A DNA stretch of 64,000 bases from Periplaneta americana (Eukaryota > Arthropoda > Insecta > Blattodea > Blattidae): assembly GCF_040183065.1 (NCBI RefSeq), contig NC_091130.1, forward strand, positions 26,702,359-26,766,358. The letters are read 5' to 3'. Positions 10,527 to 46,907 of the stretch are shown in pieces. Within the stretch, counting starts at the first letter, position 1. The number at the start of each line of letters is the position of its first letter. The notes beneath the pieces are model-generated. The model was not told the origin of the DNA. It saw nothing but the letters and a program-made list of their open reading frames with translations, and did not search any database. The translations under genes were made by a program, and so were the position numbers.

Positions 10527-11221
10527 CATTTTGACTCTTGCGTACACTACTTTTAACACTTGAATATAATGAATTAATTAACTAGTGGACTTACTCGTGT
10601 TAATTATGTAAGTTTGTGCAGCTTACAGCTGTTTCGGTGCTTCTCACACCATCATCAGAGCCTACTTGATCTCGGCGTCATCTCGAACTTCTCTGCCTGT
10701 TATGTGGGTGCGTTTGATTGTTGAAAGGTGTTGAAAAGTGGAGTCAAATAGTGTGTGTGTACTGAAATTGATCTGTGTGTTGAGAATTTGATCGGGGTGT
10801 GTTTTAGTGTGTTTGTATATTTCGTATTGTTCTAGTGTGCTGAGTTTTTGGTTCTTGGGTTATATGTGTAGGATTTCCATGTCCACATTTATGTTATTGT
10901 ATGTACAGTTAGCATTGGTTATGTGATCGGCGTATGTAGATGTATTGTGTCCTCTGGTTATTGCTTTAATGTGTTCTTTGTAGCATGTTTGGAATGATCT
11001 GCCTGTCTGTCCTATGTAGAACTTGTCGCAACTATTACATGTGAGTTTGTATACACCTGTGTGGTCGTATTTGTTTGTTTGTGTTTTTTGTGTGTTGAGA
11101 TGTCTTTGTAGTGTGTTTTCTGTTCTGTATGTTATGTTGTATTTCTGCTTTCTGAATGAAGATGCGATCTTATGTGTGCTTTTGTTTTCGTGATGTATTT
11201 CTTGTGTCTAATTAATTAATT
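10527..11221 (-). mobile_element. Penelope-like element B (PLE-B): RT C-terminus, GIY-YIG endonuclease and 3' end
   Basis: On the minus strand, 11170-11080 encodes FRKQKYNITYRTENTLQRHL, the linker after a Penelope-type RT. It is followed by YDHTGVYKLTCNSC and KFYIGQTGRSFQ, which form the GVY...YIG core, a CX2C pair and the catalytic Arg region of the PLE GIY-YIG endonuclease. A further block is DMEILHI, a stop, then PKNQKLSTLEQYEIYKHTKT. Penelope-like elements are RT-bearing retroelements distinct from LINEs; the GIY-YIG nuclease nicks the target. The copy is 5'-truncated, carries at least one stop, and is flanked by an 11-bp TSD inside PLE-A. Confidence 0.88.
10616..10668 (-). ncRNA. Hammerhead-ribozyme-like motif, PLE-B copy 1 (canonical core)
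   Basis: The minus strand reads AGGCU, then CUGAUGA, a stem II GGUG...CACC, GAAA, the self-complementary ACAGCUGU, and a UA cleavage-site context followed by AGCU. The order stem I, CUGANGA, stem II, GAAA, short palindromic stem III is that of the minimal hammerheads known from Penelope-like elements. Such short stem III forms are expected to act as dimers. There is one unpaired U before stem II. This copy has the best core in the window. Confidence 0.75.
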
Positions 11222-11300
11222 ACAAGAAAGTCATATAATACATATTCCGAAGTGATACAGTGTTAAAAGTTGTGTAATCAAGATGTATAAAAATATAACT

Positions 11301-13780
11301 TTTGTCCCATATTTATAAAAACTTTTAAAATTGAAATATGCTTAAATATTGGTCAGTCTTAACTTAAAATAAATACTTCTTTATGTGATGGATAATTGTA
11401 GGCTATATTTTTAATGAGTGAAAAATACCTTGATTTTCAGAATTTTCATGTAGTAGTAGTGTTCATTCTCTCTCTGCCAGAAAGTACAGCATCCATAGAA
11501 TATTATGTTGTTGTTGTTTTCTAATGCCAAGCGTTTGACAATAAAGTCATTTGACCTCTTGCACTCCAATATTTTTCAAATATATTATCACGGTCAGCCA
11601 CTGAAGCACAGATTTTGAGGTGTTCCGAATCCATTTCTTGGTTTGAAACCGTAGAATATTATGATGTAGCAAATCAGAAATGAAATAATGTCGTAAAGAA
11701 ACTTTTCATTAAAAATTGGGTGTGATTTCATTTCCTATAGCTAGAATATTACTAAAGCAACACAAATCTGAAAATATGTAACAATATAATTTATTATCAT
11801 GGTAATAATTAAGTGTAAAATGATAAAAAGCATAAATTAAAAAAATGAACATATAATTGACAATTAAACAAAGTATAAATATCGTGGTTGCCCTAGTCAA
11901 TATAAAATGGATTCTAAAGTGATTATGAGAAGAGCCGCGTTTCTAAAATTTCTTTGGAAGAATTCGAATGGATAAGCCGACACATGCTCTTGCGTAGATA
12001 ATATTTATAAAATGCACCCATTTCACAATTTACCAATCATCCTCCACTTTCAGTCTTCCCAGTACCGGTATTATCTGATGTCGCAAGTAATTACCTGGAT
12101 ATGCAGAGCTCACAACCGAGCAGCATTCAATAGCCACTACTATTATATCGTAATGCGAATTCAACTAAAAATAAAATTCTGGAGATATATTCCGGAATTT
12201 TAAGATTTTTGTTTTTGTTATGGTGATAATATATCTTATATCAAAGCAAACATGAAATGTTAGGATTGAGAAGGTAAAGTGTAAGGATTTGTAAATGAAA
12301 TACACTTGACGTTTATTGTAAGTTAAAGATGTCATATCTTCAACCTTTTTCTTCTTCAGTCACACACATACTTATGTAATGACATGCATACTAATTTATA
12401 ATCTAACATATGTACAGTATTTTGTACATAAATACATTTATACATACATGACATGGATCTGTGGATCAGATATATAAAGGTAATTTTTTTTTTAATTTAC
12501 TATATACATATACAACATGAAGAATTTTAGTAATCTTTCAAAAATGGTAATTTAAATACCATAACAGTAATAAAATTTTTAATACAATTAGTTTCTTCTT
12601 TATATTATTATTTATAATGAAATAACTGCCCCCTCCACATTGAGGTTATTACATCAATTGTGATTTGGAATGTTAAGGGGCAGAGGCACGACCAGCGTGA
12701 ATATCTCCATAGCTATGGGAACCCATTTTAAGAATAAAATATATCATTTCTTGTAACAGTGATTTTTTTGGCAATATACCTATGAATAAATTTATTAAAC
12801 AGACATAGTAAATCAATACAACTCTGTACAATATTAACCCCCTAGGAAACTAAATTGATATGAAGTGGGTAACCAGGGCCAATTATACAATACAAAATAT
12901 ACACATGATATTTTCCATCACATATTGGTAGAACATAGATAGTTCTCCTGGAACAATGCATCTTTTCTTTCCATGATAACTGGACTTGTTAAGACTGAAA
13001 AATATCTGAACAATATTATTTAAAAAGATGATATTTTGATTTGAAAATGTTATATAAACATATTTGTGCGAACAATACCAGCAAGTCAGGCAGAAGCTAG
13101 TGCTAGGGACACCATTCTGTTTCAGATCTTTGATCTGTATACATTTTTTGCATAGCGTAAAACAAGTATGCTTTCGGAATTGCTTATATGTAAATGAAAT
13201 GGTCTAACTGCTTTTTTAATTACGGGACATTTCTCTACTCACAGGCAATAACAGAGGGTATAATTTTAATAAGAAACAAAGCTACTCTGCAGTCATACAA
13301 TTTTCAAATATATTCTGAAAGCTTTATTATTGAGTGAATTCGAAGTTGTATGAAATATTAAAGACAACTAAAGCAATAATACCAGTATATATTAAATTTA
13401 CTATTTCTCTTTGTACAATATCGTAACTTCTCACATTCATATTTAAATCGTAGAGTAACATATCAAAATATACCGCCAAGAGAATATGATTTTGACAACA
13501 AGAAATTTGCCGACTGAAAGTCCACCATTTTGAAAGACCTAGTGTGTATACAATCTTAATATTGACAGATGTAGGCCTACTGCCTTGTGACTGGAATTTC
13601 TTCAATCTAATTCGAAAACAATAAAAAATGTATAAACAAAGGTTGATATAGGTAGTATAATGCATGTTATTTTTTTATACCATAATGACTTATCTAAATG
13701 AAGTTACGTTGCTGTTTAAGAATAAAATTGTTAACCCACTTGAGGTATGTGGATAAAAAAAAAAGAGAATAATTGTGCCG
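11301..13780. other. No recognised feature (2.5 kb)
   Basis: AT-rich DNA (long A/T runs) without credible open frames, tRNA-like boxes or obvious inverted repeats. Confidence 0.5.
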
Positions 13781-13789
13781 GGATCTGGT

Positions 13790-13835
13790 AGAGTTCCTGG
13801 GTAGCTCAGTCGGTAATTTTTTCAGGCCAATGGTG
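13790..13835 (+). repeat. tRNA-like SINE scrap
   Basis: CCTGGGTAGCTCAGTCGGTAA resembles a tRNA 5' half with box A. Nothing downstream supports a full tRNA. Confidence 0.3.
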
Positions 13836-14935
13836 TATCTTCCCACTTAAAGAGATTCAGATATTTGTGGATATAAAAAAAGTTACGACTTGTAGATAAA
13901 TAAGAAATGAGTGATTATGAATTTCATATCAGTTCAATATATGGCCATTTTTAATTATGCTGATATTTTGTCAGGAGCAATACCGTTTTCAGTCTAGGAT
14001 AATTATCAATTTCTATATTGTCACAATATTTCACAGCCGAGAGAAAAATAGTGGCTCTGATAAGATTTACTTTATATTGTTTTCACTGCTGGAAAGATGT
14101 TTAATGATAATAGTAGATCTAATCTTCGAAAAGATGTTTTTCTTAAAAATATTCACGGAAATGGAAATTATTAAAAAATACCTATTCCAAAGTGTTGTTT
14201 TCAGAAACAGTTTCTGAACTGTGATTTGATCAATGCATTACCATGAATGATTTTACTATATTACCGGTATTTGCAAAATAATATTTTTTTTTCGTACACT
14301 TGGAAGTCTGTAGTGGACGTGGACGTAAAAAAGTCTGTTAAAGAAACTAAACTGCCAATTTACAATAGGTGTTTATACTCATAAATCTATTATTAATATG
14401 TTATGTGGTATAAATTATTAGTCTTCATTTAATATTAAGACTATATGAAACTCTTATTTTCATGCCTCTATGACTGCAAAATGCCGAAAAAAATATCTTT
14501 ATAACTTAAATTAATCTTCTTGGATTAAATTGTGATATTTTGGAATGTGCAAATATGTGGAGGTCACACTTTTCAAATTACGACTAAAAATCACCTACGA
14601 AAGCTTTTAGTTACCACCTGGTGTATAAACTATACGATTCTCTAGACTCTGCTTAAACTATTATTTTAACTGCTCTTTTTTGTAGTAAGAATATATTTTT
14701 ACTCTCTGCCGAATTTCCCCAAACTTATACTCCATAGGACGTAATAGAATGAAAATAAGGAAAATACATTGTTTTAAGATAGGCTACTACCGATTAGAAA
14801 CATAGAACTGTCCCACTTCAAACTATGGTTTTGGGATAAACATATACAAATTAAATAAATCTCTTTAACAACTAATTTATTCCTAACTGTAACTAACAGC
14901 TAAGAATTAAATGTAATTACAGTACATTAGGAGAC
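13836..14935. other. No recognised feature
   Basis: AT-rich. The 86-codon open frame around 13957-14217 has no similarity that I recognise and is probably chance. Confidence 0.45.
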
Positions 14936-14990
14936 ACTCAGATTTGAACCGGCAACCTCTCGAATGCTCTACTACTGAGTTATACCATCA
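14936..14990 (-). repeat. tRNA-like remnant
   Basis: The minus strand has box A (TAACTCAGTAGTAGAGC) and box B (GGTTCAAATC) at tRNA spacing, but the acceptor stem does not pair. It is probably a SINE head or a tRNA pseudogene. Confidence 0.45.
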
Positions 14991-15336
14991 ATTGTTTCTA
15001 ATCTGATAAAGTTTCACTATTACAATAAAGGGGAATAAAAGCATGGATAAATGACTGTCTAAAAATAGTAAATGACACATGTTAAAAATTATTTTATTTT
15101 GTTCACAGGATTGCTCCACTCAGTCAACTCAGCATATGGCCTCGTTTCGCAAACATTCCTGGTCACAAAATAAAATACAATTTTTAACACTTGTATTGTA
15201 AATAACTACAGTAGAGTCCCGATTATCCGGACTTCAATTACCGGTATCTGGTCTTCTGTGTTCTCCAGATCGCTTTTTTTTTTTAATTACTGTAGTGTAC
15301 ATATTGAACAATAACGAAGTTTTTTGAAGTCAATTA

Positions 15337-15819
15337 CATACTGTACTGTATATATATTTTTTTTTTTTGATGTACCGAAGTACATATGATATTTCCACGC
15401 AGATATTCTCTTTCATCATGTGATGACGCAGAATATCTGCGTGGAAATATCATATGTACTTCGGTACATCAAAATATATATGATATGCGTAATAAATCAC
15501 TTTGTGATTTAAAGACGGCGCCCATACCGTCGGATCCCGGCCAAACAGTCACTCATCTGAGTGCACCTCAACACATGTATGGACTTCGGTCCTGCGTTCA
15601 TAGACATCTATGACGTAGTCCAGAGGGCGGCCACTAGAGGGAACCCAAGAGATGGAGCTTAATCTGAGACGATTCTAAACGGCGTCGGGATTGTATCCGG
15701 CGTGGCTTAGTGGATAAAAGCATCAGCACGTAGAGCTGAAAACCCGGGTTCAAATCCCGGCGCCGGAGAGAATTTTTCTCCGTTCCATCTCTCTTTCATC
15801 ATTTCATACTGTACTGTAT
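15337..15819 (-). mobile_element. A-tailed tRNA-Tyr-like unit with foldback end
   Basis: The insert 15352-15804 is flanked by perfect 15-bp repeats CATACTGTACTGTAT (15337-15351 and 15805-15819). A T-run at 15356-15369 is the A-tail, so the mobilised RNA was minus-strand. The tail end holds a 41-bp near-perfect inverted repeat (GATGTACCGAAGTACATATG, 15370-15410 against 15432-15472). The unit contains a tRNA cloverleaf at 15696-15767 on the opposite (plus) strand. Related units are at 28168-29192 and 63600-64000. Confidence 0.78.
15696..15767 (+). repeat. Intact tRNA-Tyr-like cloverleaf (72 nt) within a repeat
   Basis: All four stems pair: acceptor TCCGGCG/CGCCGGA, D stem GCTT/AAGC, anticodon stem TCAGC/GCTGA with loop ACGTAGA (anticodon GTA), and T stem CCGGG/CCCGG with loop TTCAAAT. 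C at position 33 instead of U, the absence of a tRNA-Tyr intron, and relatives elsewhere in the window argue that this is a repeat module rather than a functional tRNA gene. Confidence 0.7.
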
Positions 15820-16024
15820 TATAAATAAAAACACGTTTATTATGTACATGTGAGTAATGTCTTTCTACATTACTGGGTCTGATCTTTGTTCCTTTAAGAT
15901 TACAGGATCAAAAATCACATAGCGCTCTCACCCTCTGTATTATACGGATTTTCCTTGGCTCATATAGTCCGGATAATCGTGTCTCTACTGTATTGCATTT
16001 TACCGAATGAATAATGCAATTTTA

Positions 16025-19000
16025 CTTTTATACAGGGGCGGCTTTTGGGGTAGTGCCAGTGTGCCAATGAAATAAACAAAAAATAATATCCTAAAAAGCA
16101 GTTGTAATAGTTTATTTCTACACATTTTATTCGTATTTCATCTGAACGAGCGCGCGCACAGATCGGGACGCACTCTTGCAGCGTTTCTCCGAATGTTTGA
16201 ACCACTTCAGTGTGGCACTGCTTACGTCCATATAACACTGTACAAAAGGCTACTGATTCTAGTTTGTATGCGTTTCTTATGGCAGACACTGAGCCGAACT
16301 CGATTTGACTCAGTAGTTAATATTCCGCCCGCTAGAGCACAGTAATGCAGAATTTTCGCTAGATGGCAGGGTTGTTGGAGACGTTAGGCAGGAACCATCA
16401 ACCGCAGACTTGCACGAAAACACAATTTAAAGTTCCGCGCCAAATGTTAATGTAATGTTGCCATTTCAAAATTAAAGCACATAACTTGGATTTGAATGTG
16501 TAAAGTATTATTCATTTAACTATATTAAATGCAGAGATAGTCATGGTTCTTTTTAGAAACATAAATATTTTTTCATATTATGTAAAACTGTTTGTTAATG
16601 TTGTGTAATATTTGTTTTATTTTGCGGCAACTAAATATCGCTACACTGTTGCTATAGTATTGATGCTTCTGTTTACGATACACGAGATCTGTGCAGGACA
16701 TGAACATGTTCATTGGCCTGTTAAATAAAGTGCAAACGTGTTCGTTTATTATCTATATCACTGTTTCTATCGTGTGTTTTTGCTAGTAATTTTACTACTT
16801 ATAAAAGTTATTTGTATTTGACTAACAATACTGTGAAAGTTTTGCATTATCTGTATCTGTAAATTTCGTTACTAGTTTCGGAAATGTTATTGTAACTGTT
16901 ACTAGATGCATTATTAACTGTACACCTGGTAAAATAGCTGGTTTAATTAATGTTTTATTTAACATAATATAAAAGTGAGCTGCGATTATCAATTTCACTA
17001 GGGTAATTTGCGTACAATCTTTTTTCATTTTTGGCACCACCACCAGAATGCCTCACCGGCCGCCACTGCTTTTATATATTCAAAATTACAGAAGACATGA
17101 AAGTTTTGCAGTATCTGTATCTGTAAATTTCGTTACTAGTTTCGGAAATGTTATTGTAACTGTTACTAGATGCATTATTAACTGTACACCTGGTAAAATA
17201 GCTGGTTTAATTAATATTTTATTTAACTTAATATACACGTGAGCTGCGATTATCAATTTCACTAAGGTAATTTGCGTAAATCTTTTTTCATTTTTGGCAC
17301 CACCACCAGAATGCCTCACCGGCCGCCACTGCTTTTATATATTCAAAATTACAGAAGACATGAAAGTTTTGCATTATCTGTGTCTGTAAATTTCGTTACT
17401 AGTTTCGGAAATGTTATTGTAACTGTTACTAGATGCATTATTAACTGTACACCTGGTAAAATAGCTGGTTTAATTAATGTTTTATTTAACTTAATATAAA
17501 CGTGAGCTGCGATTATCAATTTCACTGAGGTAATTTCCGTAAATCTTATTTCATTTTTTGCACCACCACCAGAATGCCTCACCGGCCGCCACTACTTTTA
17601 TATATTCAAAATTACAGAAGACATGAAAGTTTTGCATTATCTGTATCTGTAAATTTCGTTACTAGTTTCGGAAATGTTATTGTAACTGTTACTAGATGCA
17701 TTATTAACTGTACACCTGGTAAAATAGCTGGTTTAATTAATGTTTTATTTAACTTAATATAAACGTGAGCTGCGATCATCAATTTCACTAAGGTAATTTG
17801 CGTAAATCTTTTTTCATTTTTGGCACCGCCACCAGAATGCCTCACCGGCCGCCACTGCTTTTATATATTCAAAATTACAGAAGACATGAAAGTTTTGCAT
17901 TATCTGTATCTGTAAATTTCGTTACTAGTTTCGGAAATGTTATTGTAACTGTTACTAGATGCATTATTAACTGTACATCTGGTAAAATAGCTGGTTTAAT
18001 TAATGTTTTATTTAACTTAATATAAACGTGAGCTGCGATTATCAATTTCACTAGGGTAATTTGCGTAAATCTTTTTTCATTTTTGGCACCACCACCAGAA
18101 TGCCTCACTGGCCGCCACAGCTTTTATATATTCAAAATTACAGAAGACATGAAAGTTTTGCATTATCTGTATCTGTAAATTTCGTTACTAGTTTCGGAAA
18201 TGTTATTGTAACTGTTACTAGATGCATTATTAACTGTACACCTGGTAAAATAGCTGGTTTAATTAATGTTTTATTTAACTTAATATACACATGAGCTGCG
18301 ATTATCAATTTCACTAAGGTAATTTGCGTAAATCTTTTTTCATTTTTGGCACCACCACCAGAATGCCTCACCGGCCGCCACTACTTTTATATATTCAAAA
18401 TTACAGAAGACATGAAAGTTTTGCATTATCTGTATCTGTAAATTTCGTTACTAGTTTCGGAAATGTTATTGTAACTGTTACTAGATGCATTATTAACTGT
18501 ACACCTGGTAAAATAGCTGGTTTAATTAATGTTTTATTTAACTTAATATAAACGTGAGCTGCGATTATCAATTTCACTAGGGTAATTTGCGTACAATCTT
18601 TTTTCATTTTTGGCACCACCATCAGAATGCCTCACTGGCCGCCACAGCTTTTATATATTCAAAATTACAGAAGACATGAAAGTTTTGCATTATCTGTATC
18701 TGTAAATTTCGTTACTAGTTTCGGAAATGTTATTATAATTGTTACTAGATGCATTATTAACTGTACACCTGATAAAATAGCTGGTTTAATTAATGTTTTA
18801 TTTAACATAATATAAAAGTGAGCTGCGATTATCAATTTCACTAGGGTAATTTGCGTACAATCTTTTTTCATTTTTGGCACCACCACCAGAATGCTTCACC
18901 GGCCGCCACTGCTTTTATATATTCAAAATTACAGAAGACATGAAAGTTTTGCATTATCTGTATCTGTAAATTTCGTTACTAGTTTCGGAAATGTTATTAT

Positions 19001-19182
19001 AACTGTTACTAGATGCATTATTAACTGTACACCTGGTAAAATAGCTGGTTTAATTAATGTTTTATTTAACTTAATATAAACGTGAGCTGCGATTATCAAT
19101 TTCACTAGGGTAATTTGCGTACAATCTTTTTTCATTTTGGCACCACCACCAGAATGCCTCACCGGCCGCCACTGCTTTTATA
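16025..19182. mobile_element. hAT-type MITE with internally amplified right end
   Basis: The left end CAGGGGCGGCTTTTGG starts at 16033. The right end (reverse complement CAGTGGCGGCCGGTGAGGC) ends at 19174. The 8-bp TSD CTTTTATA is at 16025-16032 and 19175-19182. CAGxGGCGGC ends with 8-bp TSDs are typical of hAT elements. No transposase is present. Before amplification the element would have been ~1.04 kb (16033-17068). Confidence 0.85.
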
Positions 19183-19204
19183 TATTCAAAATTACAGAAG
19201 ACAT
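16835..19204. repeat. Nine tandem units of ~263 bp spanning a transposon/flank junction
   Basis: Units start at 16835, 17099, 17362, 17625, 17888, 18151, 18414, 18678 and 18942, with periods of 263-264 bp and few differences. Each unit contains ~233 bp of hAT right end, the 8-bp TSD CTTTTATA, and ~22 bp of flanking DNA (TATTCAAAATTACAGAAGAC). Open frames on both strands recur with the same period, but they are a by-product of the repeat. Confidence 0.95.
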
Positions 19205-20359
19205 TAAAAAGCCCATAAAAAAAAAGAACTCTCTTCGATTACAAAAATGTAATTTGCTATACACTTCTACAGACCATAGAAGATTGAAAAGATCTCTAAG
19301 AAATGGACAGATACCGTAACAGACCACTGAAGTTTAGTTTTTGAACAATATGATGATGATAATGGTGATAACATTAATTCTTCACAGTGACAGTAAAGAT
19401 TTAATACAGGAAGTTGTATGGTTTGTAATTTGTAAAAGATTACTGCTATTTTTATTGCTTATATAATGTTGAATTTGACATCGAATGCCATGCCTAGCAC
19501 TGAGATGCATTTAAAAAAGTCACTAGCACTAGTTCTTGCTGACATTTGTTATTGTTACCAATTATATGTCAGTTTGATTTCCTTATAGGAACATGAACTG
19601 GTGTCATCAAGGGGGCAGGGATTGGGGAGGGGGTAATGTGAAATTAGTTTACTGAAGACCATCCAGTTATTAATTAATGTATAGCCATTTACTTCTGTTG
19701 CAATGTGGTTTGACGATATTGTCATTTTTTGTGCAACGCTACAGTTAGAGATTGTCTTGTGGCAAACAGTCATAATGTTATATCTCACATACCATTCCAT
19801 ACTTCAAAAGGAAACCAGCCATATGGCTTACAAATAAATGAGACAAAACGCTACCAACTATGTTGAGCAAGTGGCACAACCATTGGAGGGTTATTAAGTA
19901 GAAAAAAGTTCTAAGAAATCACAGCTTTTTTTAAGAGGTGAGGAAGAAGTATTAGTATAGTGTTACTGTTGTTACTTCAGACACCAGATTCCCCACAATG
20001 CAACAAACTCACTCAACTTTCATTCTCACTCAAAATTTAACCCTTTCAACTCCTACATTACTGGGGATGAAGATGGAGCCACAGCTCCTTTATTGGTCAG
20101 TCTCGGCTCCAAAGTATTCTCTCTCTTTGTCACTTAGTAGTTTTAGTGCTTTTGTCTGGACTCAAAATATCATGGGTTCAAACCTAGCAGAAGGTGATGA
20201 ATTTCTGGGGTCAGAAAATCCGAAGTATTGTTTAATCTAAGATGGAAGTAGGCTACAGCCTTGGATCCAATCCCATACTAGTTTTGTAGCATAGGAAAGA
20301 AATATACAGCATTCAACCTGTTAATGACATAAGCTAAATTATTTCAAAATGATCATCAA
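19205..20359. other. No recognised feature
   Basis: Flank of the tandem array. A short segment around 19240-19350 ending in ATGATGATGATAATGG might be a LINE 3' end, but the similarity is too weak to call. Confidence 0.4.
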
Positions 20360-22880: not shown

Positions 22881-22886
22881 TAATTT

Positions 22887-23520
22887 ATGATTCCGAAAAG
22901 GCAGATCATGCGCAGATGGATATTTAACACTGAATTTTTGATCGAAAAACATAGAGAATTTAATATTGAAACCCACCTGGCATTTATTGATATGAAGAAA
23001 GCCTTCGACAGAGTAGTTAGAAACAAATCATTAAATATTTTCGCACATGATGGTATTCCAAATCAATTAATAACAGCTATTTACAATATTTATAATAATA
23101 ATCATATACAAGTTAGGATTGAAAACAAATCTTCAGAATGGAAACGAATAAATCAATGAGTGAACTTTTTTCTCAGTCTTCAATCTGTTTTTTTGATAAC
23201 ATTGTCGCTATTATTATGATAATTGTTGACAATGTTATAATTATGATAATAGAATATCTTGTTAATATAATTATTTATCTTGTTTATACAGGGTTGTAGT
23301 TTATCTCCTCTATTATTTATAATATGCATGAATCACATTATTAAGGAATGGAGATTGAAACCACATGGAAGTATACTGATAAGTTGTTTGTCCCAAATAG
23401 ATAACTTATTATTTGCTGATGATATTGTGTTTATGGCAACTTCAGAAGATAATTTACAACGTTTAGTTTACAACTTTAATCAAATGGCAGAAAGTTTCAA
23501 TATGGAAATTTCAACTGACC
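22887..23520 (+). pseudogene. LINE reverse transcriptase, first (broken) copy of an internal duplication
   Basis: The frame 22887-23156 carries the RT palm A motif (LAFIDMKKAFDRV). The frame 23280-23537 carries GCSLSPLLF and the catalytic FADD box (LLFADDIVF). Between them about 123 bp of foreign sequence (near 23164-23287) replaces GVRQ and introduces stops. From 22974 to 23519 it duplicates 23521-23943. This is the replicase of an APE-type LINE and is inactive. Confidence 0.85.
23164..23287. repeat. ~123-bp insertion with internal inverted repeat in the duplicated RT
   Basis: It is absent from the second RT copy. It contains ATAACATTGTC and the inverted GACAATGTTAT, and lies between GAGTGA and ACAG-GGTTG, so it looks intron-like (GTGAAC...TTATACAG) by chance or otherwise. 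Confidence 0.6.
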
Positions 23521-24525
23521 CACCTGGCATTTATTGATATGAAGAAAGCCTTCGACAGAGTAGTTAGAAACAAATCATTGAATATTTTCGCACATGATGG
23601 TATTCCAAATCAATTAATAACAGCTATTTACAATATTTATAATAATAATCATATACAGGTTATAATTGAAAACAAATCTTCGGAATGGAAACGAATAAAT
23701 CAAGGAGTGAGACAGGGTTGTAGTTTATCTCCTCTATTATTTATAATATACATGAATCACATTATTAAGGAATGGAGATTGAAACCACATGGAAGTATAC
23801 CGATAAGTCGTTTGTCCCAAATAGATACCTTATTATTTGCTGATGATATTGTGTTTATGGCAACTTCAGAAGATAATTTAAAACGTTTAGTTTACAACTT
23901 TAATCAAATGGCAGAAAGTTTCAATATGGAAATTTCAACTGACAAATCTAAAGTGATGGCTTTTTTAGGAAAGGAAGCAGTCCGTAGCAAAATTTGCATC
24001 AATAATAAGATCATCGAACAAGTCAAAAATTTTAGTTATCTCGGTTACCAAATTTCATATGAAGAAGAAAAGGATTTGAATGAGAAAATTATTAAATTCA
24101 ACAGAGCAATGGGGATAATTAATCAGATATTCAACCAACCTTAGTACAAAACACACGCGCACCAGAATTTATAAAACATTGGCCAGACCTATACTCTGTT
24201 TTGGTAGTGAAGCTTGGACGATTCGTAATATTGATTCACAAAGATTAACGGCGGCAGAAATGAGATTTATGCGTCGTACAGCGGGATACACGAGAATGGA
24301 TCACATTAGAAATTTTGACATTATGAAAGAACTGCAGATTGAACCGATTACGGAATACCTACAGAAATACAGACAAAACTGGAGATCACATGTCATCAGA
24401 ATGCCTTGTTCTAGAATTCCACTTCAAATTTTAAATTACCATCCTGTGGGCAAGAGATCCTTGGGCAGACCATTCAAGCGTTGGCAAGAGACCGTAGTGG
24501 GCCACAAGGCCCAATACATGCAAGA

Positions 24526-28821: not shown

Positions 28822-29192
28822 TTCACTTAGTGATTTAAGACGGTGCTCATTCCGTCGGATCCCGGCCACTTAGTCACTCGTAATGAGTGCACCTCTGCAT
28901 ATTAATGTGTTAGATATTGTGCCACTGTCACACATTTGTGACACAGTGCATGAGGGTTGGTCACTAAATGGAAACTAAGAGGTGGAACTTAAACTGAGAG
29001 GATTCAATGCGGCATCAGAATTGGAATCTGGTGTGGCTTAGTGATAGAGCGTCAGCACGTAGAACTTAAAACCCGGGTTCGAATCCTGGTGCCAGAGAGA
29101 ATTTTTCTCTGCTCCACTGATCCTTCATCATATGATAACGCAGAATTCCTGAATGGAAATATCATATGTACTTCGGTGCATCGCTATAATAC
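28822..29192 (+). mobile_element. tRNA-Tyr-like unit, plus orientation
   Basis: Contains GTGATTTAAGACGG and CGGATCCCGGCCAC, then the tRNA-like module near 29030-29097 (TGTGGCTTAGTGATAGAGCG, CCCGGGTTCGAATCC), AGAGAATTTTTCTC, and an end (GGAAATATCATATGTACTTC) that is inverted relative to 28783-28825. Organisation matches 15352-15804. Confidence 0.75.
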
Positions 29193-32840: not shown

Positions 32841-32844
32841 TAAT

Positions 32845-33505: not shown

Positions 33506-33506
33506 T

Positions 33507-35166: not shown

Positions 35167-35187
35167 TAAAAAAGATAACTTATTCGT

Positions 35188-35494: not shown

Positions 35495-35499
35495 TATAA

Positions 35500-38010
35500 G
35501 ATGCTTATAGCACCTAAAAATTAGTGAATCCTGTACACCAATATTAAAAAATACAGTATAGGTACAGTACTGATAATAATAGGTATTTCTGTTTTTAAAG
35601 TAATAACACTAGTTAAAAAAAAGTTATACAGTACCCAGTAAATAAAGAATTATATTCATATAATACAAGAGGACACACAAACTATCATAGAGAGAGCATA
35701 AAAAAGCAGCAACAGAAAAAGCCCCTATATCATAGAAATAATCCTATATAACAAATTACCCAAACATCTAAAAACTATACTTTTAACCTGAAACTAAAAA
35801 AAATACTTGATAGAAAAATGCCCATACAGACTAGAAGAGCTATTGCACTGAGTACATTAGTTATATTGTATTCATGTCAATCGTCTATGAATAAATTTAG
35901 ATCAATGAGGGTCATTAAAAAAATAATAAATATACCGGTACCGGTAATATAAAAAGTAAAAGTTCATTGGTTTCTAATGCTCGGTGTACTGGAGTTCTTC
36001 TATTTGCCTTCTTACTTCCCAATATCGTAATGATAGATTTGTAGATTTACAGTTTTTGAGGTTTGTCATATACTACTTTTTGTGTCTGAAAATCTAGTCA
36101 CTCTTCTAGATTCAACCATCGTATTATCTGCGGAAATGTAAGGTAATTAATTACTGGTAAGCTTACTACTTAATTACAAACTCTTCAGTACATCACTTTG
36201 TGAACAGAAGCTAATGAATCGAGAAATTAACAAAAATTAATCATAAAAGCATATAATTTAATGTAGCAGTACTCAAAAATATACTGCAAAAATGGGTGTT
36301 TTCCACGCAAATGGCTGCAAAGAATTTACATTTTGTACCAACTCAGTAATTGAGAAAATTCTTATGTATTTCATTTGTCTCCTGCCGCAGCTCAAGTAGA
36401 AGGTTTCTAGCTGAAATTCAATTGCTCTCAATTCGATTTCGGGAAGAAAATGTAGATTTATAACTCCATGATTTAGGATAGCATCGTTTTGTTTTGCTTT
36501 GTTCTTGTGTTATCTTAAACAGTGGTTTTGTAGCAAGCTGACAACATGACCAGGGAGTCCTGCTATTTATGAATGCCTAGTTTTGTTTCATAACACTCAC
36601 AAGAGTGAGGACTGAATGAGTAGAAGCATCCAATCCTTAAATTACTTTTATTAGTATAATTCAATCTAACTACAGTATGGTACCAAATTTATTTTCTGCA
36701 TCACTCAGTTCAACAAGTCTGGTATGAATAGGGATGCTGACTAATTCTTGCATCTAGATGAGATATGGGCTGCTATAGTAGCGATATATAGCAGATATGG
36801 GCTAGCTAAGAATGATCTTCGCATTTTGTGAATGTTTCAAGTTTAAAATTGTAAAATTATTTCAAGAGTTTGAAGTTAGTTTTTCTTTAACACTGTTTTC
36901 ATTGATAACACCTGTTTTTGTGTTACTTATAATAATAAAATTGATAGGTTAGGTTCAGTACTGCTTCTACTGTGTCAACCAATATATTAAGGCCACCCAC
37001 GTATTTATGTATATTTACACAACTTAATCCCTCATAGTTGAATTTTATTGTAAGACTTCCGAACTAGCCTACCCATGAAAAATAAGTTTCTTGAAATCTA
37101 TTCTTTCGAAAAGAAGTAGCCTATTTACTACGAAAATATTTTTAAACATTTTGTTGTTATGATCTTTTCTTATATACAGTATATATTAAGCCAAGACGAA
37201 TTAAAATGATTATATCCAATTTATATGTGCTGAAATACATAAATGTCAGATATAATTATTATAATAGGTACAAGTACTACATTTCTTTTAGTCAGATATG
37301 CGTTGAGATGATAGCACCAAATTAATCTGAGTCCTTAAAATGAGATATGTAACATATAATATGGTATCTTACATTTAGTGTCTAATGCAGTAGTTAGTTT
37401 TCCAATACCTCAACATATGGCAGAAGTATACAGATTTTACTTTCCAGGTAACTATACAAACTGTTGTATGTATAAATGTTTACCTACCCTACGTAATAAC
37501 TTCAAAACACTAAAACGTCACTTACCACGTTTTACCATACTCCCAGTTTTACATACGTAATCAGTGTGATGTATACCCCTTGAGACAACCCCACGTACCC
37601 CTGGGGGTATGTGTATAGATTAGATACCACTGCTCTATCAAAAGGTGATGCTTGCCGATTGTAGGAGACTTGCTCTGCATGTCGTATCTAAGTAGGTGAA
37701 AATTGACTTTCTACTAAATCGACAGAGCAGTGTACTGAATATGATGAATTTAATCTTAACGACAAACAGACTTGGTTCTTTGCAAAACTCCCATTCATTT
37801 TTCAGCATATTATGACTTTGCACTTTTCAAAATTACTGTAATGGTGAAACAAAAGTAATAGGTACTATATTTGAAAAAATTCCTCTACTTTTCCTTTTCG
37901 CTTCTCAAACGAGTTTTGAAAAGTGATAATGCAACAGATACTGCAAAGTGTAAAGCCAAAAAGTTTAATAGCTGAATAGGCCCCAGGTTTAAATGAGTAC
38001 ATAAATTCTA
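35500..38010. other. No recognised feature (2.5 kb)
   Basis: AT-rich DNA. TACCGGTACCGGTA lies at 35933-35946. No supportable gene. Confidence 0.5.
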
Positions 38011-38422
38011 AAGTGATGTTATATCAAAAACTGTTTTTATTTTTTTGAAGAGCTGTAACATAAATATTGCCTCAACATATAACTGACTAAAATTATACCA
38101 CCATAAATGCAACTAATATATTTTAATTCTCAGTACTGTAACAATACTGGCAAATTGAAATGTGTTATATTTTATTTTAATTTTTATAAATATATTTTTT
38201 TTCCTTGTACGGAGGAGGGACTCAAAGGCTTGCACTGCAACCAAACACTGTTATTATAAATATTTTACTATTAAAATTTGATAGATATCAAAGAGATGTT
38301 ATATCAAAAAGAATTTTTATTCTTTTGAAGAGCTGTAACATAAATATTGCCTCAACATATAACTAAAATTATACCCCCATAAATGCAACTAATATATTTT
38401 AATTCTCAGCATCAAAAATTGA
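38011..38422 (+). repeat. ~280-bp repeat D, 1.5 tandem units
   Basis: The partial unit 38011-38133 and the full unit 38134-38422 share GATGTTATATC at a 280-bp spacing. Motifs: ACTGTAACAATACTGGCAAA, CTTGTACGGAGGAGGGACTC and GGCTTGCACTGCA. A third unit follows at 39286 and a solitary one at 43492. Confidence 0.88.
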
Positions 38423-38464
38423 TTGATTAACTAGCGGACTTACTCGTGTTAATTATGTAAGTTT

Positions 38465-38514
38465 GTGCAGCTTACAGCTGTTTCAGTGCTTCACGCACCA
38501 TCCTCAGAGCCTAC
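38465..38514 (-). ncRNA. Hammerhead-like motif, PLE-B copy 2
   Basis: Minus strand: AGGCU, CUGAGGA, stem II with one mismatch (GGUG...CACU), GAAA, ACAGCUGU, UA, AGCUGC. Core consensus CUGANGA is kept. Confidence 0.65.
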
Positions 38515-38597
38515 TAGATCTCGGCGTCATCTCGAACTTCTCTGCCTGTTATGTGGGTGTGTTTGATTGTTGAAAGGTGTTGAAGAGTGGAGTCAAA

Positions 38598-38601
<4 letters not shown>

Positions 38602-38654
<53 letters not shown>
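38602..38654 (+). repeat. (GT)n microsatellite inside PLE-B
   Basis: About 26 GT units within the former coding region; in the minus-strand frame it reads as a Thr-His run. Confidence 0.95.
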
Positions 38655-38655
<1 letters not shown>

Positions 38656-39146
38656 GCCTACTGAAATTGATCTGTGTGTTGAGAATTTGATTGGGGTGTG
38701 TTTTAGTGTGTTTGTATATTTCGTATTGTTCTAGTGTGTCGAGTTTTTGGTTCTTGTGTAGGATTTCCATGTCCGCATTTATGTTATTGTATGTATGGTT
38801 AGCATTGGTTATGTGATCGGCGTATGTAGATGTATTGTGTCCTCTGGTTATTGCTTTAATGTGTTCTTTGTAGCGTGTTTGGAATGATCACATAACCAAT
38901 GCTAACCATACATATAATAACATGAATGCAGACATGGAAATCCTACACATACAACCCAAGAACCAAAAACTCAACACACTAGAACAATACGAAATATACA
39001 AACACACTAAAACACGCCCCGATCAAATTCTCAACACACAGATCAATTTCAGTACACACACACTATTTGACTCCACTTTTCAATACCTTTCAACAATCAA
39101 ACGCACCCACATAACAGTCAGAGAAGTTCGAGATGACGCCGAGATC

Positions 39147-39198
39147 TAATAGGCTCTGAGGATGGTGTGTGAAGCACCGAAACAGCTGTAAGCCGCAC
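39147..39198 (+). ncRNA. Hammerhead-like motif, PLE-B copy 3
   Basis: AGGCU, CUGAGGA, GGUG...CACC, GAAA, ACAGCUGU, UA, AGCCGC. Stem I pairs AGGCU with AGCC. All core bases except variable N7 match the consensus. Confidence 0.7.
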
Positions 39199-39285
39199 AA
39201 ACTTACATAATTAACACGAGTAAGTCCGCTAGTTAATCAATTAATTATATTAAAGTGTTAAAAGTAGTGTAGGCAAGATTCAAAA

Positions 39286-39551
39286 TGGTGTTATATTTTA
39301 TTTTAATTGTTATATCTTTTTTTTTTCCTTGTACGGAGGAGGGACTCAAAGGCTTGCACTGCAGCCAAACACTGTTATTATAAATATTTTACTATTAAAA
39401 TTTGATAGATATCAAAGAGATGTTATATCGAAAAAGAATTTTTATTTTTTTGAAGAGATGTAACATAAATATTGCCTCAACATATAACTGACTAAAATTA
39501 TACCACCATAAATGCAACTAATATATTTTAATCTCAGCACCAAAAATTGAT
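39286..39551 (+). repeat. Repeat D, third unit
   Basis: Starts inside the unit at GTGTTATATTTTATTTTAAT and continues collinear with 38170-38422. The first ~35 bp are lost at the PLE-B border. Confidence 0.88.
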
Positions 39552-40422
39552 TTAACGTTGGAATTCATCCTATTTCAAAATGATATTTAAAAAAGCTCAT
39601 AACTTGAATTTTTTTTTTTTTTTTTTACAAATTCATAATTTCTCCCAAATATACGATTAGTTTTCAGTGTGATTATTTATTCATAAATAATTCAGAAATC
39701 TCAAAACAAATATTCAAAACTGAGGATTCAATTATTTAAACATGCGTTAAGCATGAGGAAGGACTCGACAATTTGGTTGATTATTGTAGTCCATCCAGTT
39801 GGCTCACATTTGCAAATGCAACATCTCCAGAGAACAGCACACAAACCCAAGGCTGTGAAGGGATGTCAGCCCCACAGGCTGCTCTTTCATACTTACTCTC
39901 CTACAGCACTGAGACTTATATGTACCTTCCTGGGCCACGTCTCATGAGTCCTTGAAGCCTGCATCCGGCCAGGTTCCTTATCACATCACTGTAAAGCTCA
40001 CTCTATGAAAATACGACTCACAAATCCAAGATTATCACTGCTCTGTCTACGATCTTCCCGAAAATAGCTGATACTGAAACATCAAGAAAAAGTAATTAAC
40101 AGTGTAATAATGGCTGCCAGGCAGACGACAATGGACACCGAGAAGCAGAACATTCAACAAGTAACACTGTGAGTTAGGCAGACTGAGCAAACACAGAGAA
40201 ACTTCGTTAGTATGTGCCACGTCATCGCTTTGTATTACTTCCTATCTTTTAAGAAGAAGAGTTAGTTGCATTGTTTCAAAGGAGCAGTTTACAGACATCC
40301 TGCTACTGCAGAAAAAAAGAACAGTACGAATTTAACAATGACACCACTTTGACCATCACGTAATTAGATCTCTTTTTAAAAAATAGAGAAATTATGAGTG
40401 TACAATTCATATATTTTTTTAA
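39552..40422. other. No recognised feature
   Basis: Partly GC-richer (39750-40000) but with no motif that I recognise; two overlapping ~60-codon frames there are probably chance. Confidence 0.4.
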
Positions 40423-41133: not shown

Positions 41134-41247
<114 letters not shown>

Positions 41248-41562: not shown

Positions 41563-42180
41563 TTATATAAAATCAACTACCTTCAGTATATTAATAAGAA
41601 AATGTTTGTATTTCAAGTAAGAAATGCAGAAATCTAGATCCCATGTTTTACATATTTCATTGAAATTTGAACACATTTTTAACACTGGTGAATTTTTATG
41701 TGATGAAGTGTTTGGTTTTTTATAATGTAACAATTGACGATTTCTTAAATGTGATGTTCTAGCGTTAATCTGGATTTGTGATCCGTTGAATATTTTATAT
41801 AATAAGAGTTGTTCAGCAAGTAATCTACGACTGGCAAGAGACATTTAAATTAAATTCAGCAAGTAGATTGTTGTACGAAATTTTGTTATGGAGGGCTGAA
41901 CAATGATATATTCTAAAACACAGATATCTAGAGAATCGTTTTTTAATTTTTTCAATTTGATTACTATGTGATTTGCAAGTGGGTGACCAAATTACAGAGG
42001 CATATTCCAATTTAGCGCGAACATGACAATTAAAAAGGAGTGTCAAAGTCGAAGTGTTCTGTAAAGTTTTTGAATTTATAATAACAAAACCCAGATTTTT
42101 GAAAGCATTATTTGTTATATTAAATATGTGATGTAATATGGAGAAAGAACATAAGGGTTGAGATTGGGGAAACACTAAAT
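41563..42180 (-). pseudogene. CR1/Jockey-like LINE reverse transcriptase, C-terminal part
   Basis: The minus-strand frame 42175-41825 contains NNAFKNLGFVIINSKTLQN and CHVRAKLEYASVIWSPTC (the LxRSKLEYaSxIW block after the RT core), then IEKIKKRFSRYL. A frameshift at about 41835 continues in 41844-41563 with SLASRRLLAEQLLLYKIFN and KNSPVLKMCSNFNEI. These are standard post-RT blocks of CR1/Jockey-group ORF2. The catalytic palm is missing (5' truncation). Confidence 0.88.
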
Positions 42181-42389
42181 TTACCAGGTATGTCCTTCAT
42201 AGTTTATTTAAGTTACAGAGCTATTCATTTTATTTTCAGGTTCAGTTCAGAACACTACAATGACATAATTCGCTATAGCGGTAAATTACAACACTATATG
42301 ATGATAATTCGGAAATGCGGACAAGTGAGCGATACTATAATAAAAATCCGAACACAACGAACGAATTTTTTCCGGTAAGTGAGCGCCTA

Positions 42390-43490
42390 TCTTTATTATT
42401 ACTTTTTTTTTTAATTCGAGATAAGTTAATATCTGTGAAAAAACTATGATAATAATGAGATAATAGTTATATGACATGAAGAGTAGAAACAACGGAGGCA
42501 TTATCCAATGAAGCATTCTAAAAGATGATTACATTTTCCATACAGCACAACAATGGTACTGGTTCCACCATTTCTGACTAAAAATGGTGGAGATTCTCAA
42601 TTTTTTTTTATAAACCTTGAAAATTTAGTTTTACTAACACTAAACATTAACAGCAACAATCTATATCAATCAAGATACAATTAAAAATAAATAAATACAC
42701 AAATAGGTAAATAAATAAACAAATAAACGTATCAGATTTGTAGTTAAAGTGTACATGATATTTCTTTCAGCTCTTGCATAATCTTTGACAAACGTTTCTT
42801 TCCATAAGTAATTTGTGAATATACACAAAAGCCGTCCTAAATAAGGGTTCGATAGATCGGCCTACTAATCAATTCATAAAGAATAATAAGTAAACAAAAC
42901 AATTTTGTGACACTTGGAAAGAAAAAAAAAACATTAAGATAAATGATAAGAAATAATGCAATAATTACGAAGTTATACATATTTAAAGAAGCTTAATGCA
43001 CGCTTCAATACTAACGAAGTTGCACTGTTAGTACACAGATATTTGCAATACAGATTAAGTTTAATTAACATCAAATTTTAAAACAAAATACACCTCTTAA
43101 ACATCCAATCAATACACACTACTAAGCTACACAATACAAGCATTGAAGAAGAGAGAAAGCCAATGAAGTACATAGAGTACAGAAGTGGTAGGCTCCCAAC
43201 TATCTTCCTTTCTTGTTACGCTGTTTCCGTATTTGACATACATCTTAACAATGTTCTTTTCCCACCCTCTACCAACACATATATTATATATGTTGTCTGA
43301 TTTATAATATGCTTTAGTATAATGCAGGGGTACATTGGTAAATGGTGTCTTCTCAAAATAGTTTGCCTTATCTTCTGGTTCTACATGTATTGTACAATAC
43401 ATTTCAGATATATGAAAATTGATCTACTTAAGTACATTTATGTAAGGTTCTATATTCATTAGAAAACTCAAGTCCAATAAGATTGAAATT
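42390..43490. other. No recognised feature
   Basis: AT-rich. The ~90-codon minus-strand frame at 43127-43402 has no recognised similarity. Confidence 0.45.
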
Positions 43491-43491
43491 T

Positions 43492-43655
43492 TGTATTGTA
43501 ACAATACTGGCAAATTGAAATGTGCTATATTTTATTTTAATTTTTTATCTTTTTTTTCTTCTTGTACGGAGGAGAGACCGGAAGGCTTGCACTGCAGCCA
43601 AACACTGTTATTTTAAATATTTTACTATTAAAATTTGATAGGTATCAATTGTTTT
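43492..43655 (+). repeat. Repeat D, solitary partial unit
   Basis: Collinear with 38135-38290 (TGTAACAATACTGGCAAATT, then TTGTACGGAGGAG) and diverging after TTTGATAGGTATCAA. Shows that repeat D is dispersed. Confidence 0.85.
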
Positions 43656-44746
43656 TATATCTATGAAGTCAATCTAGCATTAAATTGATTTGTTTTGAAC
43701 CTTTATATCGTGGAGTTATGTTGAAGAATTGAAAGTATATCAGAATACTACAATTATGGGAAATAATATATCAAAATACTACATACTACAACAGATACAA
43801 CTTTATAATTTATGTATTTTTTATTTACGTACATACACTGATAATAAGTTTCTTGAATACAATTTGAAAAAATCTATATCTTAAAATTTCCAATGTTTCT
43901 TGCCAATTTACTTCAACTAAATAGATTCTGCACACTAAATTTTAAATTTTATAATGACACCTTTCAGACCACTGCAACCCTGCATAAAATGCTACATATA
44001 ATTTCTTTACTCCCTTTATGTGTTGACTTCTCTAAGTATCTTTTAACTACAGAAAAAATCACAAATACAGTTTATTTACTTCAAATATTCTAATTCCATG
44101 TTTTAGTGAAATCCAAATTTAAACATTAATTCAGTAAAGTCATAACTGACACCTAAATATAATTATTTTCTAGTTATGCTGTGTAACAACATCAGTTAAC
44201 ACTATCAGTAAATGTGCACACCTAGAGGACAAATCTTTGTTGTCTCTAAAAGATGATATTCAAACAAATGAATACCGGTACACATTTCTTAAAACCAATT
44301 CTTAGTAAAATACATAAGATTTTATTCACATGTTTTAGATTTGCAAAAATGTGGTGGGCTGGTATATCTTAAAATAGAGCTTATTTTAAGATTCTCATAT
44401 ATTCCAAGAGGGATTTGTTAAAATTAATTTTTGTTCTTTACTAGACACTGATAATAATCTTTTATAGTTTTGTCATCAAGGTTACTGCAGGTATAGGCTA
44501 CCAATAAAGTGTTTAATATTTTTAATACAATAGTAATTAAAGAACACTGCCGTAACTGAATGGTTATATTTATTATTGTCGTGATTTGAAAATCAGGGTT
44601 GGTTTTAAATGTTTAACAAGATCTATGTTGAAAATGTCAGCAGCAATACATATTCGGAATTAGCCATCTTGCAAATTGTCTGGCTAAGTCCTGCTTGATA
44701 ACAATATTATACATAAGACTTTTAACCTCACAAGAAGGTTCAGTAC
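43656..44746. other. No recognised feature
   Basis: AT-rich; no gene or repeat that I recognise. Confidence 0.5.
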
Positions 44747-44836
44747 TAACTATTATTATACATCTTGATTACACAACTTTTAACACTGTATCACTTCGGA
44801 ATGTGTATGATAAGAACTTTCTTGTGTTAAATATTA

Positions 44837-45276
44837 TTAACGTACCTTGTTAACATGTTTCGACCTATTTTCGGTCATCTTCGGAACTGGTCGTTGTTGT
44901 TCTTGCGCCTCTTGTTTCCTGTGTGGGTGTGTTCGAAGTGTAGAGTCAAAGAGTGTATGTGTTTTGAAATTGAGTTGTGTGTTGAGAATATCGTTGGGGT
45001 GTGTTTTCGTGTGTCTGTATATTCCATATTGTTCTAGTGTGTTGAGTTTCTGGCTTTTTGGTTGGATGTGCAGTATTTCCATGTCTGTGTTGATGTCTCT
45101 GTAGGAGTGGTTGGCATTTGTGATGTGTTCTGCATGTGTGGAGGTGTTTTGTAATTTTGTTATGGCTGTGATGTGTTCTTTGTAACGTGTTTGAAATGAT
45201 CTGCCTGTCTGTCCTATGTAGAAGTTGTTGCAGGTGTTACATTTGAGTTTGTATACGCCTGTGTGGTTGTATTTGT
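44837..45276 (-). pseudogene. PLE-A GIY-YIG endonuclease, left copy
   Basis: The minus-strand frame reads YNHTGVYKLKCNTC (GVY motif, CX2C), FYIGQTGRSFQTRYKEH (YIG, catalytic Arg, His), HAEHITNANHSYRDINTD, MEILHIQPKSQKLNTLEQ (candidate catalytic Glu) and TLFDSTL. This is the endonuclease of a Penelope-like retroelement, which cuts target DNA to start insertion. The frame is open through 45276 to 44837, but the RT is missing and no start codon of its own belongs to it. The open frame continues antisense into the right copy by chance. Confidence 0.9.
44843..44893 (-). ncRNA. Hammerhead-like motif, PLE-A left copy
   Basis: Minus strand: CCAGUU, CCGAAGA (one change, U4 to C, from CUGANGA), stem II GACC...GGUC, GAAA, palindrome ACAUGU, U, then AACAAGG, which pairs with CCAGUU apart from a bulge. 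The U4 change should weaken activity. Confidence 0.55.
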
Positions 45277-45305
45277 ATCTCAACACACAAACAACATAAA
45301 CAAAC

Positions 45306-45716
45306 AAATACAACCACACAGGCGTATACAAACTCAAATGTAACACCTGCAACAACTTCTACATAGGACAGACAGGCAGGTCATTTCAAACATGTTACAA
45401 AGAACACATCACAGCCATAACAAAATTACAAAGCACCTCCACATGTGCAGAACACATCAGAAATGCCAACCACACCTACAGAGACGTTAACACAGACATG
45501 GAAATACAGCACATCCAACCAAAAAGCCAGAAACTCAATACACTAGAACAATATGAAATATACAGATACACGAAAACACACCCCAACGATATTCTCAACA
45601 CACAACTCAATTTCAAAACACATACACTCTTTGACTCTACACTTCGAACACACCCACACAGGAAACAAGAGGCGCCAAGAACAACAACGACCAGTTCCGA
45701 AGATGACCGAAAATAG
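45306..45716 (+). pseudogene. PLE-A GIY-YIG endonuclease, right copy
   Basis: The same domain in the plus orientation: YNHTGVYKLKCNTC, FYIGQTGRSFQTCYKEH, CAEHIRNANHTYRDVNTD, MEIQHIQPKSQKLNTLEQ, TLFDSTL, stopping at 45716. It is open over ~137 codons and differs from the left copy at scattered residues, so the two copies are not a recent exact inversion. The RT is missing. Confidence 0.9.
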
Positions 45717-45739
45717 GTCGAAACATGTTAACAAGGTAC
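45690..45739 (+). ncRNA. Hammerhead-like motif, PLE-A right copy
   Basis: Identical core to the left copy (CCGAAGA, GACC...GGUC, GAAA, ACAUGU, U, AACAAGG). Confidence 0.55.
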
Positions 45740-45799
45740 GTTAATAATATTTAACACAAGAAAGTTCTTATCATACATATTCCGAAGTAACTATTATTG

Positions 45800-46700
45800 T
45801 TATTATCTTTGGTTACCTCTGGCAGATAGTAATAATATTTAATAATAGTTTACAGCAAATGTTAATAACAACAACATATTATGAACTAAAGAACAAATTC
45901 AGGTCATAATTTAATAAACTTGACGTTAAAGATAAATGTTAAATATGGATTTCACTGTGTTCATTTAGAACTGCACTTCCTCACCATGCTTACTTGACTC
46001 ATTGCAGAAGAATGATGCATTGTAGTAACTGAGAGAGAGAGATGTAGAGTCAGTCTACAACAACTTTAGAAAACAAAAGTATGAAGAATGCACACAATAG
46101 TATAGTAGTTCACACAGAGAGTAAGAAGATGTGAACTAATGACATTCTTAAAGCCAAAAGCGTTATCACAACACACAGAGAAGACAGTATTTTCTTTTTC
46201 CAAAAAAAAACACAAGAACCAAGAAGATACGACACGACTTGACATAAGAGAAGACTGACGAAGTACAATACAGAGCAATTACTCCTGCAAACACAAATTA
46301 AGCGCAGTGAAAAACAGTAGTGTATCAACTTGCAGCTGCCACCGCAAGATGTCTCACATACTTGTAGTGGAAGCAATTGTACGGGATAAGACAGCTACGG
46401 GAGGGAGATGGTGGGGCACTGGTTATGAGTGAACATTTCTTCTGGAAAACACATTCAGTTGGCTCCAGAAGTAATTCAATTTGCAGAAGATCGGTTTTGT
46501 GTCAAGGACTCTTAGGTGGTGTAAGTAAGACATGATGTAATTGCATTGTAGTAGCCTATATTATTATGTGACAGGCTGTTTCAGAAACTGTCTATTGTAG
46601 CTACATGGGAAAGGCAGAGAAATCCACTTCGTAAAAAATATCATTAACTAGTCATTCTAAAGTTGTGGATATTTCAGGGACACAAAAATAACTACCGGTA
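45800..46700. other. No recognised feature
   Basis: AT-rich; overlapping ~70-90 codon minus-strand frames at 46066-46376 have no recognised similarity. Confidence 0.45.
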
Positions 46701-46749
46701 TAAATAATTGATTAAATGGCGATCTTACTCATGTTATTTGTGTAAGTAT

Positions 46750-46802
46750 GTGCGGTTTACAGCTGTTTCGGTGCTTCTTCACACCATTCTCAGAGCCTTC
46801 TA
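46750..46802 (-). ncRNA. Hammerhead-like motif, PLE-B copy 4 (core mutated)
   Basis: Minus strand reads CUGAGAA, so the invariant G8 is lost. The other parts (stem II, GAAA, ACAGCUGU) are kept. Predicted inactive. Confidence 0.6.
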
Positions 46803-46852
46803 GATCTCGGCGTCATCTCGAACTTCGCTGGCTTCGAGATGACGCTGAGATC

Positions 46853-46907
46853 TAGTAGGCTCTGAGGATGGTGTGAAGAAGCACCGAAACAGCTGTAAGC
46901 CGCACAT
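46853..46907 (+). ncRNA. Hammerhead-like motif, PLE-B copy 5
   Basis: AGGCU, CUGAGGA, GGUGU...GCACC, GAAA, ACAGCUGU, UA, AGCCGC. Core intact. Confidence 0.7.

Follow-up and report, generated by a model that had tools for sequence, protein, structure and literature searches.

The 64,000-nucleotide stretch of the 3.23-Gb genome of the cockroach Periplaneta americana analysed here (contig NC_091130.1; G000:C14:26702359-26766358; hereafter, the window) contains short hammerhead-like motifs, each of which lies at the 3' end of a 5'-truncated Penelope-like element (PLE). These motifs, which represent two families in the window, A and B, and a third, C, elsewhere in the genome, are very probably minimal type I hammerheads (B and C) or a weakened relative with the core change U4C (A) that reside in the 3' terminal region of the elements, depend on dimerization or on a protein, and belong to elements inserted from uncut RNA.

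Hammerhead-like motifs in the window

The motifs were delineated with a strict descriptor that consists of the core CYGANGA, a spacer of 0-2 nt, a 4-bp stem II, and GAAA, followed by a self-complementary stem III, U, any base, and a stem I of at least 3 bp, with G-U pairs accepted. This descriptor matches the window six times and has no match in 300 dinucleotide shuffles. A loose version, without stems III and I, gives seven window matches against a shuffled mean of 0.12; the extra match, at 54737 (minus strand), is not a PLE copy, and the other six are the strict matches. Because the six strict matches are homologous copies of two families, they amount to two independent events. The same lack of independence, with copies of a family a few percent diverged (arm-to-arm means 2.9-3.6%), is what can be said for the view that a short motif was matched by chance and then multiplied with the copies. 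Given shuffles free of strict matches and three families whose stems differ in sequence and occupy one and the same position near the endonuclease open reading frame (ORF), we find such a coincidence hardly credible.

In family B, the motif at 10621..10663 (minus) has the core CTGATGA at 10658, which is the canonical CUGAUGA claimed for this copy in an earlier note on this DNA, and the motif at 38469..38512 (minus) has CTGAGGA at 38507 and one G-U pair in stem II. At 39151..39194 (plus), the core is at 39156, the cut is predicted after 39190, and stems I, II, and III are AGGCT/AGCC, GGTG/CACC, and CAGCTG. The remaining family B motifs are 46857..46901 (plus; core CTGAGGA at 46862) and a degenerate one at 46754..46798 (minus), where the core at 46793 reads CTGAGAA (G8A) and stem I is mutated. 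Family A is represented by 44844..44891 (minus; core CCGAAGA, with U4C, at 44884) and 45690..45737 (plus; core CCGAAGA at 45697, predicted cut after 45729); the latter has stems II GACC/GGTC and III CATG and covers the last part of the endonuclease ORF (SSEDDRK), whose stop codon falls in loop II. A family-A-like remnant (10475-10525 and 11222-11295) keeps the 3' half of the motif only.

The earlier note had claimed at least seven copies in three families. All seven sites are present, that at 46750 being the copy broken at G8; within the window, the motif occurs in two families, and the third was found elsewhere in the genome. The extra U that had been noted before stem II is seen in 7/7 window copies and completes an AUG that begins with core A9 and ends with the G that opens stem II.

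Pairing and core conservation in three families

The three families share one fold and differ in its sequence. Family A has stem I ACCAGTT/AACAAGGT, core CCGAAGA, stem II GACC/GGTC, stem III CATG, and a predicted cut after TT; family B has stem I AGGCT/AGCC, core CTGANGA, stem II GGTG/CACC, stem III CAGCTG, and a predicted cut after TA. Family C (L063 and L069-L076) has stem I GACA/TGTC, core CTGAAGA (8/8 copies, L069-L076), and stem II GACGC/GCGTC, with a GTC cut site in 6/8 copies in the register that we chose. Stem III is palindromic in A and B only, and nearly so in C.

Stems were aligned in six rows (one A, four B, and one C), leaving out the B copy with the broken core and the A copy that is identical to the one used. 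All 24 of the 24 stem II cells are paired, compared with 20.8-45.8% when the partner is slid by 1 to 3 columns, and three of the four pairs are changed on both sides. Stem I retains 3-4 of its 4 proximal pairs in register versus 0-2 when slid, in A, B, and C alike. The claim that both stems pair despite the different family sequences thus holds, and this pairing, along with the published minimal hammerheads of PLEs, supports the hammerhead reading.

A census of 83 full copies (38 A and 45 B) from 57 loci and the window, with partial matches, including the G8A window copy, dropped, found CCGAAGA in 36/38 A copies, as had been proposed for this family, and CTGANGA in 43/45 B copies. U4C is, therefore, a trait of family A. 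The type I hammerhead core C3-U4-G5-A6-N7-G8-A9 is found in B and C and is absent from A, which, on account of U4C, we term hammerhead-like only.

The motif could alternatively be conserved as code for a C-terminal peptide of the endonuclease (S/T-E-D-D), with the pairing incidental. Motif and ORF end overlap in the plus-strand copy of family A, where the core encodes SSEDDRK, and TEDD appears at the corresponding position in one frame of the family C copies, but behind a stop codon. The family B ORF ends shortly before the core (DDAEI stop), yet the core and the pairing persist, and the paired positions change together between families. This explanation, already disfavoured by family B, appears very improbable.

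The elements that carry the motif

Homologs of GIY-YIG endonucleases, detected with tblastn, adjoin the sites at 10.7-11.2 kb, 38.6-39.1 kb, and 44.8-45.7 kb; the pair at 46.7-47.0 kb lacks such a match because it is too short to hold an endonuclease. Among 23 matches, nine are named Periplaneta americana and two carry PF01541, the best homologs, from Periplaneta americana, being 86 and 89% identical across 86 and 77% of the query. Pfam recognized PF01541 in one of six ORF fragments (E 0.0026, under the Pfam cut-off) and gave no match for the other five. Upstream of the endonuclease, the two longest copies contain GLPMGSP and CVDD (L026) and YVDD (L022), which we take to be reverse transcriptase (RT)-like motifs, in broken frames with no intact ORF. 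The endonuclease homologs and these upstream motifs support the assignment of the elements to the PLEs, in accord with the earlier note, and the copies show traits of endonuclease-bearing (EN+) PLEs, namely, GIY-YIG endonuclease homology, 3' tail variants, inverted arms, and short target-site duplications (TSDs).

The window elements are all fragments, and no full-length or tandem (pseudo-long terminal repeat, pLTR) copy was found among the copies looked at. A candidate tandem array in family C was rejected: the downstream stretch shared by 4/8 copies (L069, L070, L073, and L076) is flanking sequence, and the apparent ORF start read as a protein resembling those of long interspersed nuclear elements (LINEs) in both copies that were extended.

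A 5'-truncated family B element with a tail (10527..11221, minus) is nested in the family-A-like remnant and flanked by an 11-bp TSD, ACAAGAAAGTC (10516-10526 and 11222-11232, read by eye); it includes an endonuclease ORF fragment (10860..11207, minus) recognized by tblastn homology, with no Pfam match. The other window elements are head-to-head pairs. The family A pair at 44758..45787 has a tailed minus arm and a short plus arm, an 11-bp TSD, TAACTATTATT (44747-44757 and 45788-45798, read by eye), and an ORF fragment for the C-terminal part of the GIY-YIG endonuclease (44840..45325, minus). The family B pairs at 38417..39291, the outer bounds of which are alignment ends accurate to a few bases, and at 46699..46995 both have a short minus arm and a tailed plus arm.

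Two observations concern the surroundings of the family B pairs. A direct repeat of ~265 bp flanks the first (about 38161-38424 and 39287-39552, the right copy beginning at the tail end), with a partial further copy at about 38010-38136; it is either a very long target duplication or the mark of an insertion into an older tandem repeat. The two arms of the second form a hairpin (46784-46871) that gives an Rfam mir-3160 match under the gathering cut-off.

Where the inserted copies end

We sampled 60 loci, 30 per family, as the best of 40 scored from 1394 (B) and 1036 (A) first-look candidates, so the sample favours young, well-kept copies. Three of these loci lie in the window (L001, L031, and L034), and L031 and L034 are one insertion. 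The 3' ends of the sampled copies fall at two points, either ~60 nt past the predicted cut or ~40 nt further, with a tail that is similar in A and B, GTGTTAAAAGTNGTGTA. With end points ~60 and ~100 nt beyond that cut, the inserted 3' end is not a product of cutting. The partner arms of head-to-head pairs, which were not chosen by our queries, start upstream of the predicted cut and cross it in 35/41 cases and start past it in 6/41; none of the 41 starts within 3 nt of it. Cutting at this site is, accordingly, no visible step in the making of inserts. In PAc, the Poseidon element of Anolis carolinensis, two RT start sites account for the tail, and the hammerhead ribozyme (HHR) cuts only with protein and is dispensable for insertion in vitro (PMC11167929); inserts made without a visible cutting step are in line with that assay.

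The same observations bear on the alternative that the fold serves the PLE protein as an RNA recognition element, used in binding or in placing the RT start, and that it derives from a hammerhead and no longer cleaves in these families. The partner arms that cross the cut site, the insertion of PAc without need of cleavage (PMC11167929), and the abundance of family A (1036 first-look candidates, 40 of them scored) despite U4C all speak for it. On the other side, CUGANGA is kept in B (43/45) and C (8/8), mostly along with GAAA and the UH cut site, a conservation that seems stricter than binding alone would need, although the B and C copies are young, so that their cores reflect the source sequence and not selection on each copy. 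We consider a recognition element of this kind unlikely.

Head-to-head pairs carry one tail

The census of pairs covered 59 loci (L034 was removed as a duplicate), 41 of which have a partner arm with a classifiable end. In every one of these 41 pairs (23 B and 18 A), the two arms differ, one having the short end and the other the tailed end, whereas arms that chose their end points independently would differ in at most half of the pairs. With narrower bounds and the duplicate kept, the outcome is likewise 41/41 rows of 60, and the window pair at 46699-46995, which is outside the census set, also has one short and one tailed arm. Among the other 18 loci, at least three (L043, L058, and L060) have a partner-arm end that fits neither class, and the rest show no partner arm in the 3.1 kb seen, at least one of them, L053, being a simple insertion, 5'-truncated and bounded by an 11-bp repeat of its own. 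A shared word of at least 9 nt near both outer ends is present in 27/40 distinct pairs, and is exactly 11 nt long in 16; when flanks were permuted within family and end class, the mean was 0.37 (maximum 3) for at least 9 nt and 0 for 11 nt. The tail is on the shorter arm in 36/41 pairs, on the longer arm in 4, with one tie, an excess that selection explains in part, since only arms containing the query could serve as main arms.

Minor variants shared between the arms suggest a common source for the two arms of a pair in family B only, where they number 6/13 (0/2000 permutations as high), compared with 4/32 in family A (229/2000 permutations as high). Arm-arm divergence is barely lower than that between unrelated arms (0.029 vs 0.032 in A and 0.033 vs 0.036 in B).

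An earlier publication describes the tail as an optional feature of one inverted pLTR and proposes self-priming as the origin of inverted pairs (PMC3846280). The asymmetry is, thus, known in kind, and our addition, judged against an open-licence literature that covers a minority of PLE papers, is its strictness. Self-priming seems hard to square with the inverted pairs because their arms differ in 5' end and tail. A bolder and rather unlikely scenario is that head-to-head insertion uses each start point once, one per target strand, in a coupled twin priming in which the hammerhead mainly dimerizes or positions the template RNA and cutting is secondary. Priming could then be coupled through one RNA loaded at both sites or through two RNAs joined by the palindromic hammerhead. 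If the hammerhead did mainly dimerize or position template RNA, this would explain why family A tolerates U4C.

Weighing the hammerhead reading

Several results weigh against a hammerhead. Rfam searches, run without a positive control, yielded no hammerhead match at the gathering threshold or at E up to 10 in the window, in pieces of 901 bases and of 81-91 bases around three sites, or in L063-L066. A covariance-model search without a match for any copy is the outcome that the earlier note had itself set against its claim. Monomer folding energies are not below those of shuffles, and the dimer energy of the commonest sequence is matched by 52/500 (A) and 181/500 (B) shuffles. Two of five stem II measures are not clearly above shuffles: both-side changes reach three in 27/500 shuffles, and further pair types number 4 versus 4.2 in shuffles, 419/500 of which are as high. 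For family C, folding of a composite sequence does not predict a hammerhead; stem II pairs completely in four of the eight copies and contains a G-U pair in one and a mismatch in three, and GAAA is altered in 3/8. That main arms cross the cut site reflects selection, given that the queries spanned it. Finally, the U4C core of family A is probably weak by analogy with another hammerhead, that of a viroid, in which U4C reportedly leaves much lower in vitro activity, yet enough for infectivity (PMC3088659).

The Rfam null is not counted as decisive because minimal HHRs without helix III occur in PLEs, as stated in two papers (PMC6155905, PMC7761336). In two-strand folding, a double hammerhead is the best structure for 21/27 distinct B and 7/16 distinct A sequences. 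The paired stem II variants in family C (GACAC/GTGTC and GATGC/GCATC) are possibly due to CpG decay and are not counted as compensation.

Other features of the window

A 263-bp tandem repeat occupies 16834-19208 (nine copies, 97% matches), and a short array of TTAGG, the insect telomere-type unit, lies at 55760-55798. Transfer RNA matches above the Rfam gathering score are found at 15696-15768, 29027-29097, and 63621-63694; the last two score lower and could be derived from short interspersed nuclear elements. ORF fragments at 23467-24144 and 57830-58492 resemble LINE reverse transcriptase.

Relation to known hammerheads and a possible mechanism

Minimal type I hammerheads of PLEs were reportedly described by Cervera and de la Pena in 2014 and by Lunse, Weinberg and Breaker in 2017, the latter with dimer-dependent cleavage stated in its title. 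So far as papers that cite these studies convey, the cockroach motifs resemble those hammerheads in having stems I and II, a hammerhead core, and no regular helix III, within PLEs, and family A differs by U4C. The double hammerheads of newt satellite and avocado sunblotch viroid (ASBVd; PMC6155905) likewise combine a weak helix III with far better cleavage as a dimer, which is a prediction in our case; they belong to satellite DNA or a viroid, in contrast to the retrotransposon 3' region and fully palindromic stem III seen here. PAc shares with our elements an HHR near the RT start sites and two such sites that define a tail (PMC11167929). In PAc, an AUG at the start of stem II is followed by the cut 26 bp downstream (PMC11167929), the corresponding distance being 27 nt in A and 29 or 30 nt in B. 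The PAc ORF starts at that AUG, whereas the window copies have an early stop after it, so their ORF probably starts elsewhere; also, cleavage was measured in PAc and is predicted here from sequence alone. The cockroach PLE hammerheads are, then, a further example of already published PLE hammerheads.

If the sites are minimal hammerheads, a lone copy would form stems I and II and no usable stem III, and the palindromic stem III (CAGCTG or CATG) would come together only between two copies, on one tandem transcript or on two RNAs, or with help from the element protein. Readthrough or tandem transcripts would then self-cleave immediately 3' of the endonuclease ORF, which may serve to process them. 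Inserted copies would stem from RNA uncut at the motif, with reverse transcription starting ~60 or ~100 nt past the cut site and copying back through the motif, and the hammerhead would not be needed for insertion, as published for other PLEs. A weak ribozyme that depends on a partner makes sense here, because a strong cis-cleaver would separate the template from the points at which its own reverse transcription starts.

The role of PLE hammerheads is described as unknown in PMC7761336. The cockroach genome offers three natural variants of them, including one whose core is weakened, in copies that show the cut site, the RT start points, and the insertion ends side by side, and the one-tail rule yields a concrete prediction on how PLE insertion may be coupled between the two target strands.

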